From: Ruminococcus sp.
GTDB lineage: Bacteria; Bacillota; Clostridia; Oscillospirales; Ruminococcaceae
NCBI GenBank assembly: GCA_017620025.1
Contig: JAFZRF010000015.1
Span: forward strand, 1-39,485
Direction: 5' to 3'
Length of the DNA stretch: 39,485 nt
Made by a program: the position numbers and the translations under genes. The notes beneath the pieces are model-generated. The model was not told where the DNA came from. It searched no databases and saw only the letters and a list, made by a program, of their open reading frames with translations. The stretch's first letter is position 1, and every line of letters starts with the position of its first letter. This document shows positions 22,015 to 24,072 of the stretch, in pieces.

Positions 22015-22290
22015 TTATTCTGCGCTGAGCTTAGCGTAGCAGTCGCTGCAGTATACAGGTCTGCCGTCACGGGGCTCAAAGGGAACCTTTGCCTCGCCGC
22101 CGCAGGTAGCGCATACACCTGTGTACATAACTCTCTCAGCTCTTCCGGAGTTCTTTCTTGCGTCACGGCAAGTCTTGCATCTCTGAGGCTCATGCTCAAA
22201 GCCTTTCTCAGCATAGAACTCCTGCTCGCCTGCAGTGAATACGAACTCGTTTCCGCAATCCTTGCAGACTAAAGTCTTGTCTTCGTACAT
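22015..22290 (-). CDS. CxxC-x17-CxxC zinc-ribbon protein
   Basis: 91 residues from the ATG at 22290 (SD GAGGT). Two zinc-ribbon units are visible: Cys9/Cys12 with Cys38/Cys41, and Cys60/Cys63 with Cys81/Cys84, the latter with exactly 17 residues between the CxxC pairs, as in the small CxxC-x17-CxxC family. Such proteins are abundant in Clostridia; a nucleic-acid or ribosome-associated role is suspected but not established. A longer frame reaching 22380 would read through the tRNA-like RNA and is rejected. The tRNA-like element ends 27 nt upstream of the start and may be part of the same transcript. Confidence 0.85.
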   Translation of the reverse strand: MYEDKTLVCKDCGNEFVFTAGEQEFYAEKGFEHEPQRCKTCRDARKNSGRAERVMYTGVCATCGGEAKVPFEPRDGRPVYCSDCYAKLSAE

Positions 22291-22317: not shown

Positions 22318-22405
22318 AGACCACGGCCGGACTTGCACCGGCACCTTTGATAAGACCCGGCATCGCCGGAGAAAATACAACGCTCTTGAGTTAAGCTACC
22401 CGGTC
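22318..22405 (-). ncRNA. tRNA-like RNA with aberrant loops and extended anticodon arm
   Basis: 88 nt on the minus strand that folds like a cloverleaf but is not a normal tRNA. The acceptor stem GACCGGG/CGTGGTC pairs with one G-G mismatch, followed by TA at positions 8-9. The D stem is GCTT/GAGC, with loop AACTCAA lacking the conserved GG. The T stem GCCGG/CCGGC is perfect, but its loop is TGCAAGT, with G in place of U55. In the anticodon position a longer arm forms: TTGTAT/ATCAA, a 5 by 5 internal loop, then CCGGC-GAT-GCCGG. No CCA is encoded. It could be a non-translational tRNA, a decayed tRNA or an mRNA leader of the zinc-ribbon gene. The T arm also resembles the P4 hairpin of cobalamin riboswitches, but the rest of that core is missing. 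Confidence 0.45.
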
Positions 22406-22412
22406 ATATAGT

Positions 22413-22444
22413 CTCTGTCAGCCGGCATTCACCGGCCGACAGAG
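22413..22444 (-). other. strong stem-loop after the DivIVA-like gene
   Basis: 13-bp stem (22432-22444 with 22413-22425, one G-T pair) and a 6-nt loop, 18 bp downstream of the DivIVA-like stop and 8 bp upstream of the tRNA-like RNA. No T-run follows on the minus strand. It may be a 3' stabiliser, a processing site or a poor terminator. Confidence 0.6.
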
Positions 22445-22461: not shown

Positions 22462-24003
22462 TTATTCGCTCTCGTTTGAAGCAGCCTCTTCGGCAGCCTT
22501 AAGCAGCTCAGCCATATCAAAGTTGAAGTTGTTCTTCTTCTGTGCGGGCTCGTCATTCTTATGATCGGATGACGGTCTCTCTGTGGTGCCTGACTTTGCG
22601 AAGGAATTTGCCCAGTTATCTGATGAGGGCTTGTGCTCCTCATGCTTTACTTCCTTTGCAGCGAAAACATCACCTGAGATCTCAGCCTTCTTTGCGCCCT
22701 CGCCCTTTGTAGCTTCGTCTACAGTGGAGCGAGCCTCAGCAAAGATATTCTTTGCCTGGTTCATGCGGTCAGTAGCCTGAGTTGTGAGCTTGCTGATGGA
22801 AGAGTAGATGTCGCTGAACTTGGTGTTTACGCTCTCGATCTCGTTGAGGAGCATCTTGCGAACGTTATTGGACATCTCGTTGACCTTGTTAGCCTTGCTG
22901 TCAGCCTCGGCAACAGTAGCTCTTGCCTTGGAATCAGCCTCAGCAACAGTGGACTTAGCCTTGGAATCAGCCTCAGCGATAGTCTTCTCAGCTGTTCTGT
23001 TAGCCTCGTTGATGATCTGATCAGCCTTCTGGTTAGCCTCTCTTGTAGCCTTGTCAAGTACCTCGGAAGCCTCCTTGGTCATCTGAGCAGCCTTGTCCTT
23101 AGCCTCCTTGGTAACTGCGTCTGCCTCGTTCTTGGCCTGAGCCTTGAGAGCATTTACAGTCTTCTGAGCCTCTGCAAACATTGTACCCATCATAGCGACA
23201 GGGTTATTAGCCTCATCCTTGAGCTTCTCGATCTCCTCGTTGAGGGACTTGATCTGCTCTTCCTTCTCGGATACAGCCTTGGCAACAGCCTCGTCCTTAT
23301 CCTTTGTAAGAGCGGTGATCTTCTCTTCCTTCTCAGCGAGTTCCTTGGTCTTTGCAGCCATCTCAGCGGTCATATTCTCAAGGTCGCTGCCGATCTTCTC
23401 GAGATCAGCCTTAGCCTTAGCGAGCTCAGCCTCAGCGGCAGGATTGCCTGCTGCACCTGCGGGAGCTGCTGTAGCTGCTGCAGCTGCCTTCTGCTCTGCT
23501 GCAACGGCCTTCTGCTCTGCGGTCTTGACCTGTCCGCGGAGAGTTTCGATCTCCTTCTTTGCAGCCTCGAGAGCCTGCTGTGCCTGTGCGGAAGCCTGAG
23601 CGTTGCCCTGACCGCCGGCAGCCTGAGCTGTCTTGAGCTGGTTGCGGAGATTCTCTATTTCCTTCTTGGCAGCCTCAAGAGCCTGCTGTGCCTGAGGATT
23701 AACAGCACCTGCCGGAGCTGCGCCGCCTCTGCCTGCAGCCTCGAGCTGCTTCTTGAGTTCTTCGTTCTCTTTTCTTGCTGCTCTGAGAGCATTGTTGGAT
23801 GCATTGAGCTTTTCCTGCAGGTTGTCGACCTGATTCCTATACTTCGTAAGCTCCTGAGGATCGGAAGAACCGGTCTCCTTAGCTTTCTTCAGATCTTCTT
23901 CAAGACTTTCGATCTTAGAATTCAGTTCGTCGAGGTATGTGAGGACGTCCTCCTTGACAAAACCGTTTCCTATCTTAGTTGTCCTTAAAACGGTAGGTTC
24001 CAT
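22462..24003 (-). CDS. DivIVA-like long coiled-coil protein
   Basis: 513 residues from the ATG at 24003 (SD GGAG); an ATG five codons upstream overlaps that SD. The N-terminus (KIGNGFVKEDVLTYLDELN) resembles the membrane-curvature-sensing start of DivIVA. A long coiled coil follows, interrupted by Ala/Gly/Pro-rich spacers near residues 100-205. Residues about 290-390 are an 11-residue Ala/Lys/Asp/Glu repeat array with three close copies of TVAEADSKAK, similar in texture to LEA proteins. The C-terminus is polar and disordered. It probably localises to poles or septa; placement just beyond ftsZ fits that. It has its own promoter. Confidence 0.7.
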   Translation of the reverse strand: MEPTVLRTTKIGNGFVKEDVLTYLDELNSKIESLEEDLKKAKETGSSDPQELTKYRNQVDNLQEKLNASNNALRAARKENEELKKQLEAAGRGGAAPAGAVNPQAQQALEAAKKEIENLRNQLKTAQAAGGQGNAQASAQAQQALEAAKKEIETLRGQVKTAEQKAVAAEQKAAAAATAAPAGAAGNPAAEAELAKAKADLEKIGSDLENMTAEMAAKTKELAEKEEKITALTKDKDEAVAKAVSEKEEQIKSLNEEIEKLKDEANNPVAMMGTMFAEAQKTVNALKAQAKNEADAVTKEAKDKAAQMTKEASEVLDKATREANQKADQIINEANRTAEKTIAEADSKAKSTVAEADSKARATVAEADSKANKVNEMSNNVRKMLLNEIESVNTKFSDIYSSISKLTTQATDRMNQAKNIFAEARSTVDEATKGEGAKKAEISGDVFAAKEVKHEEHKPSSDNWANSFAKSGTTERPSSDHKNDEPAQKKNNFNFDMAELLKAAEEAASNESE

Positions 24004-24072
24004 AGATGTACACTCCATTCCCCGCAGGACTCTGCGGAATAAAAATTAAAGGGTAAAAAAAGCCTTTTATTA

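Follow-up and report, generated by a model that had tools for sequence, protein, structure and literature searches.

Staphylococci possess a non-proteogenic wall tRNA-Gly with a changed D loop and changed T-loop positions 54-56, which has an anticodon arm, is charged and acts in trans. The use of tRNAs as punctuation is known from mitochondria. The closest known system to the element described here is the tRNA-like yjdF riboswitch, a four-way junction located shortly before the Shine-Dalgarno sequence, which has been proposed to be a homologue of tRNA and which responds to azaaromatics, altering translation (PMC9142559). tRNAs grafted at this place before a Shine-Dalgarno sequence increased translation 2- to 6.3-fold in vitro (PMC9142559). 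RNase P sites exist in polycistronic mRNAs and riboswitches (PMC11143913). The RNase P of B. subtilis prefers U(-1) and A(-2), and the elbow formed by the D and T loops and the 3' RCCA are further features that RNase P recognises (PMC4919922).

In the current analysis a tRNA-like element of 87 nt (22319..22405, minus strand) has been characterised in a contig of Ruminococcus sp.; the window is the whole stretch of DNA analysed, 39,485 nucleotides in length. The original prediction had described at this place a tRNA-like cloverleaf with TA at 8-9, a D loop devoid of GG and a T loop beginning with TGC, and all of these are read in the minus strand of the window together with the acceptor, D and T stems. 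The 5' strand of the acceptor, GACCGGG (22399..22405), faces CGTGGTC (22319-22325) with a G-G mismatch at pair 6-67 and a G-U at 5-68 when paired by hand, and the discriminator position is 22318. The D arm is GCTT-AACTCAA-GAGC (22382..22396) and the T arm GCCGG-TGCAAGT-CCGGC (22326..22342). The position of the anticodon arm (22347..22380) is occupied by a foot of TTG (22380-22378) and CAA (22349-22347) enclosing 28 nt, in which the hairpin TCCGGC-GAT-GCCGGG (22370-22356) is located. The longer hairpin with its GAT triloop is thus as predicted, whereas the internal loop, predicted to be 5 by 5, is 7 by 6 when paired by hand. Decoding had seemed impossible here, and the arm indeed has no anticodon loop.

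A covariance model built from 10 relatives with the window left out (R1) recovers the element with 76.9 bits (E 1.4e-20), and the next-best match in the window has an E value of 1.1, so that the element is more than a chance resemblance. The covariance search proposed with the original prediction succeeds in part: the Rfam tRNA model (RF00005) scores 32.0 bits over a 321-nt stretch, above its gathering score of 29 (E 4.4e-5), whereas in a gathering scan of the whole window the element is absent and the sole entry is a tRNA-Arg. The Rfam yjdF model is absent from the three matches obtained at E values up to 10 on the 321-nt stretch. ARAGORN makes no call for the element of the window, and its folding energy is ordinary (z -0.43), which by itself is not evidence. 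The element is real and conserved.

The family has been followed outwards from the genus. In a nucleotide search of 60 related genomes, query positions 1-29 and 53-87 abut in the same-genus matches, these relatives being without 23 nt of the arm found at the anticodon position in the window. R1 matches are present in 99 of the 125 genomes of the genus (E up to 0.1), although in at least three of these (G002, G116 and G141) the model has picked up a different RNA. The family sample has matches in 173 of 347 genomes and the order sample in 121 of 394 (E up to 1e-4), nearly always once per genome, part of the weak order matches probably being ordinary tRNAs (for example one of 73 nt and 31.7 bits); 57 of the 394 reach 45 bits or more, spread over 12 families. 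The 173 of 291 class-wide matches to the model R3 are not a count of elements, since many matches of 35-48 bits are ordinary tRNAs. A pattern scan of named genomes, which used letters of the element alone and was blind to the neighbours, gave at least 120 loci, including those of R. flavefaciens XPD3002 and R. bicirculans 80/3. Where loci were scanned with Rfam 15, tRNA was the one family scoring at gathering level over the element; a known Rfam class other than tRNA has accordingly been set aside. The tRNA finders are inconsistent on the family: ARAGORN is silent in the window and calls a tRNA-Cys in L071, which keeps the T-loop TTC.

The covariation proposed as a check on the stems is supported in two alignments. 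In A3 (74 genus rows, 66 distinct, with 8 rows that are not elements), both partners have changed in 14 of 19 pairs, a number that none of 500 shuffles and no slid version equals. In A5 (61 rows of relatives) the number is again 14 of 19, and once more no shuffle among 500 and no slid version attains it. The alignments A3, A5 and a further one, A7, were fitted to the model structure and lean towards it. In the smaller MAFFT alignment A2, made of the 10 relatives behind R1, double changes are confined to two pairs of the T stem, as many as or fewer than in 395 of 500 shuffles, whereas 1 shuffle of 500 attains its covariation score. For A7, 154 of 500 shuffles attain the count of double-change pairs, and none attains its cells or its score. 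Since the scan pattern prescribes some of the D-stem and anticodon-stem letters as well as a loop of 4-7 nt, the constancy of these parts in A7 is built in. The stems are conserved among relatives, and an intact anticodon arm, which would have marked the window copy as a lone pseudogene, is not the rule in the homologues, most of which have an even smaller arm than the window; the copy is thus not a lone pseudogene. L071 is one possible exception among the homologues. Covariation together with conservation across families shows that the element is under selection.

The absence of GG from the D loop, the frequent TG of the T loop and the stub of an anticodon arm are traits of the family. A single row among the 66 of the genus has GG in the D loop, as does one of the 61 in A5. 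T-loop positions 54-55 read TG in 54, TT in 6 and TC in 1 of the 61 rows of A5, and TG in 54, TT in 19, TC in 6 and TA in 1 of 80 among the at least 120 pattern loci; in these 80 loci T54 is invariant, A58 is present in 79, and CCA is encoded at 74-76 in none. Acceptor pairs are often open, 5-68 in 45 and 6-67 in 40 of 77 distinct rows. The anticodon arm of the family is a stub of three pairs; of the 61 relatives of A5, 49 have 4-6 nt inside it, one has 7 nt and 11 have 10-28 nt. The D arm and the junction are nearly invariant across the family and the distal arm is freely variable, its extra length amounting to 23 nt both here and in G133 (L062), 54 in L019, 57 in L080 and more than 120 in L385, L387 and L390. 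The core of tRNA is kept, and the elbow, the anticodon and the 3' end have been given up. The core positions retained without decoding are 8, 14, 21, 54 and 58 in tRNA numbering.

The element shares with yjdF a four-way junction of tRNA-like form that closely precedes a Shine-Dalgarno sequence. It differs from yjdF (PMC9142559) as follows: the D-like loop L2 of yjdF has GG in over 97%, whereas GG is nearly absent from the present family and is missing in the window; the purine-rich extended J1/2 of yjdF forms a pocket, whereas J1/2 of the element is TA; and P4/L4 of yjdF pairs with the Shine-Dalgarno sequence, whereas no strong masking is predicted for the element, which precedes another gene. 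The staphylococcal wall tRNA-Gly shares with the element the changed D loop and T-loop positions 54-56; the element, however, lacks an anticodon, encodes no CCA and accompanies a single gene.

The gene following the element (22015..22290, minus strand) encodes a zinc-ribbon protein assigned to zf_Tbcl (PF13451) and zf_Tbcl_2 (PF23477), also described as CxxC-x17-CxxC (TIGR04272), and it is preceded by the likely Shine-Dalgarno sequence GCGAGG on the same strand. The libraries searched describe no function for this protein, which has 28 invariant columns among 40 diverse relatives. Within one order, numerous bacteria of the gut and the rumen have a tRNA-like element ahead of this one zinc-ribbon gene. 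Homologues upstream of CxxC-x17-CxxC genes were to be collected according to the original prediction, and the linkage they reveal is tight. The zinc-ribbon gene follows the element in 79 of 80 and 40 of 40 among the at least 120 pattern loci; in the remaining one the gene start is masked and the visible remainder fits the zinc-ribbon gene. It is found just downstream in 42 of 42 loci of the family and order, for one of which this was assessed by eye. Of 74 matches of the genus model, 66 lie just upstream of it, the other eight being five domains of a separate tandem family and three ordinary or odd tRNAs. In a family of another order (f47) it follows the element in 5 of 5 loci. Among the literature titles listed, none deals with a tRNA-like leader of the zf_Tbcl gene, and the words tRNA-like, zinc and Ruminoco are absent from the main text of PMC11109978 and PMC8632094.

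A SigH-like C-terminus, recognised by motif, is encoded before the element in 171 of 199 loci at a median distance of 22 nt. The sigma proteins of L371 and L364 pass the NCBIfam SigH cut-off; for those of L010, L224 and L302 the SigH models are best or nearly so, below the cut-off. The window is exceptional in having a DivIVA-like gene where most relatives have sigH. Of the two neighbours named in the original prediction, the zinc-ribbon gene stands, whereas the DivIVA match of the upstream gene (22462..24018, minus strand) is weak, 20.5 bits against a cut-off of 28. Immediately before the 5' end of the element, a hairpin (CTCTGTCGGCCGG..CCGGCTGACAGAG; 22413..22444, minus strand) has no T run and is absent from the predicted terminator-like sites; a hairpin with altered letters is seen by eye at the equivalent place in L062. 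A promoter-like site is located at 24101-24073 on the minus strand, and no terminator-like site has been predicted on this strand between it and the element, which is therefore probably inside a transcript. In L410 and L412, divergent elements follow an apparent sigma-70 promoter of their own and a small hairpin, as judged by eye, and the leader may head its own transcript there.

A second family, consisting of two tRNA-like cloverleaves in tandem over about 135 nt, has also been identified; the first cloverleaf has a tiny T loop and the second is without GG. Members are located in L077 (888-1024 and 1109-1245, plus strand), in L078 (2029-2170, 1812-1947 and 1176-1311, minus strand) and in the further loci L132-L157 and L162. 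Double changes are seen in 18 of 38 pairs (6 sequences). Matches of at least 60 bits number 41 in 26 of the 125 genus genomes, the 6 model sequences included, and one among the 394 order genomes (L162). The motif TTGAC-N15-20-TAnnWT is found just upstream in 27 of 27 opened loci and a T run downstream in 22, and in 9 of the 27 an O-acetylhomoserine sulfhydrylase-like gene starts within 600 nt; the neighbouring protein of L077 passes TIGR01326. In L077, L078 and L083, tRNA was the sole Rfam family to reach its gathering score. The tandem family could represent a novel small RNA or an attenuator. Next to tRNA-Met, ARAGORN reports odd tRNAs as 'tRNA-???', with an anticodon call of four letters, in L086 (1144-1216, minus strand), L087 (1151-1223, minus strand) and L089 (1208-1280, plus strand).

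The origin of the element is suggested by its neighbourhood in the wider class. When the 24 best class loci were passed through ARAGORN, 5 were elements and 19 were not; among the latter, 15 have a tRNA-Thr(GGU) as the matched tRNA, three a tRNA-Arg and one a tRNA-Gly. A SigH-like gene is located 97-281 nt before the tRNA-Thr(GGU) in all 15, tRNA-Gly(CCC) lies beside or before it in 9 of the 15, and in L371 the next gene after the tRNA-Thr is tuf, as judged from its sequence. The five f47 loci (L361-L364 and L377), which belong to another order of the class, have the order sigH, element, zinc ribbon; by eye, their elements keep GG in 4 of 5 and TTC in all 5, and none has a normal anticodon arm. 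A tRNA-Gly(CCC) precedes the element in 3 of these 5. From the sigH and tRNA-Gly(CCC) neighbourhood in common, the element occupies the place of the tRNA-Thr(GGU) gene. This tRNA resembles the element in position, in some loci with the tRNA-Gly(CCC) as well, and in the pattern of acceptor, D and T arms; it differs in that the element has lost the anticodon, the CCA and, in the order of the window, the elbow, and is tied to an mRNA. Isotyping by plain sequence identity has been rejected as not decisive, since Phe, Cys and an odd tRNA rival Thr: the f47 elements are on average closer to Phe than to Thr, yet their best single match is Thr, and for the elements of the order Phe, Cys and the odd tRNA average as high as Thr or higher. 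A tRNA-Thr(GGU) query matches 12 of 14 genomes, all 12 loci checked having the anticodon GGU, and 9 of these 12 genomes also have an element match; decoding there is independent of the element, as the true tRNA-Thr(GGU) coexists with it. The same query gave no match in the incomplete genome to which the window belongs. The position thus points to a former tRNA gene, probably of tRNA-Thr.

The 5' flank of the element in the window is ATAT (22406..22409, minus strand; A-4 T-3 A-2 T-1), which resembles the leader of a pre-tRNA. Over 201 distinct elements the flank has A-4 in 78%, T-3 in 70%, A-2 in 85% and T-1 in 83%, against 52, 47, 61 and 65% at the same positions of 188 ARAGORN tRNAs of the loci collected up to that stage (a few odd calls such as L071, L077 and L078 included, and kinship uncorrected in both sets) and a background of 32% A and 26% T. 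The elements therefore share the 5' leader preference of the pre-tRNAs of the same hosts. A-2 is present in all 19 and T-1 in 15 of the 19 loci without a sigma-like gene upstream, these being 23 loci less 4 that look sigma-like by eye. The flank of a fossil would be expected to be weaker than that of real tRNAs, and the observed one is stronger. An apparent three-codon frame, RTG-N6-TAG, over the 5' end was dismissed, as it follows from A-2 T-1 G1 and U8 A9 G10. Among the features of an RNase P substrate, the U(-1)/A(-2) leader is present and the elbow and 3' RCCA are absent.

On this basis we propose that a duplicated tRNA gene, most probably the tRNA-Thr(GGU) located after sigH in other Clostridia, came between sigH and the zf_Tbcl gene and would have become a cis element, its anticodon arm shrinking to a stub and later lengthening again in some lineages. 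It would be transcribed within a longer RNA covering sigH, the element and the zinc-ribbon gene, or in the window the DivIVA-like gene in place of sigH. RNase P would recognise the tRNA-like fold and cut between AUAU and G, freeing the zinc-ribbon mRNA with a tRNA-like cap at its 5' end some 25-40 nt before the start codon, and the cap would protect this end and favour translation. The mRNA structures that RNase P is described to cut (PMC11143913) resemble this model, cleavage of the element itself being a prediction. That the element is a tRNA-derived cis element is very probable from its sequence and setting, and that it helps to process or translate the zinc-ribbon message is probable. The processing and cap mechanism is put forward tentatively, at somewhat under an even chance, since the elbow and 3' RCCA are absent and the inner acceptor pairs are often open; a signal for processing alone, moreover, could do without a D arm and junction that hardly vary, and a GG double mutant of yjdF dropped almost to background (PMC9142559), while the element is without GG. 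The explanation as a whole, from the tRNA-Thr copy through the RNase P cut to the cap, is about as probable as its negation, some relatives having lost the element and kept the zinc-ribbon gene.

These losses have been followed in 35 genomes, mostly picked for lack of a good element match, of which 31 keep the zinc-ribbon gene. Among 30 such gene loci, R3 recovers three long-armed elements and four weak ones (L405-L407 and L410), and many others have, by eye, a different long leader or a short hairpin instead. Being lost in relatives that keep the gene, the element can evidently be replaced, as would be expected of a processing signal or leader more than of an essential trans-acting RNA. In part of the genus (L388, L389, L391, L393 and L395-L404) the tRNA-like leader is seemingly replaced by another long leader, which may resemble an IS200/IS605 right end. 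A RAGATH-18 RNA (L388, 1331-1392, plus strand; 72.4 bits, gathering 44.9) is located near the zinc-ribbon gene.

The original prediction had offered a non-translational tRNA, a regulatory leader or a fossil. The leader, that is a cis element, is the best supported of the three by the linkage to the zinc-ribbon gene at the pattern loci (at least 120), in 42 of 42 and in 66 of 74 loci. Within this reading the four-way junction could also act as a regulatory switch that binds a ligand, or the zinc-ribbon protein in an autoregulatory operator mimicking tRNA, and so alters translation. The close association with one gene, a junction core that hardly varies beside a distal arm free to do so, a protein rich in CxxC, and the rather fixed codons 2-4 of the gene (top codon 87-98%; Gln 23 and 36 also 94%) are consistent with it, and among the 127 of 201 loci that could be parsed the enforced cloverleaf raises the predicted openness of the Shine-Dalgarno sequence by more than 0.1 in 42 and lowers it by as much in 7. 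The mean shift, however, is small, with an unpaired probability of 0.42 when free, 0.51 with the cloverleaf enforced, 0.40 when shuffled and 0.51 when the element is deleted, and the 2-nt J1/2 provides no purine-rich pocket of the yjdF kind, so we regard such a switch as possible and rather doubtful. A switch that masks the Shine-Dalgarno sequence has been rejected for the little average change with the cloverleaf, though 42 of the 127 loci rise, and pairing of the stub loop with the Shine-Dalgarno region has been rejected because, by eye, it is seen in some species and fails in others.

An excised, trans-acting, non-decoding RNA used in wall synthesis or together with the zinc-ribbon protein could explain the pre-tRNA-like leader and the kept cloverleaf. 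It is unlikely, as CCA is absent in 80 of 80, the inner acceptor pairs are often open and the element is never apart from the zinc-ribbon gene in the loci opened; the staphylococcal wall type is unlikely on the same grounds and for the missing anticodon. A decaying pseudogene would account for the loss of the anticodon and for the weak, apparently decayed copies of one genus (16.5 bits, L405-L407), and covariation and conservation across 12 families leave it very improbable. The fossil thus survives as a possible statement of origin from a tRNA gene and fails as a description of a decayed state, since covariation and conservation show selection. Most likely, then, judging from the sequence comparisons, the element is a co-opted, non-decoding copy of a tRNA gene that acts in cis.

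The finding would provide an apparent and traceable case of a tRNA gene turned into an mRNA control element, with possible intermediates still extant: normal tRNA-Thr after sigH in other parts of the class, a near-normal elbow in f47, elbow-less elements in the order, longer arms, and losses. It shows which positions of the tRNA core stay once decoding is abandoned. A bolder reading, which we hold to be rather unlikely, is that of a bacterial counterpart of mitochondrial tRNA punctuation, in which many Clostridia of this order would keep an anticodon-less and elbow-less former tRNA-Thr solely as a cis signal, RNase P cutting the mRNA away from sigH and leaving a tRNA-shaped 5' cap recognised by the ribosome or by the zinc-ribbon protein. 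A tRNA shape in a leader that drives processing or translation would be testable in the cultured species Ruminococcus flavefaciens and R. bicirculans (L293, L302).
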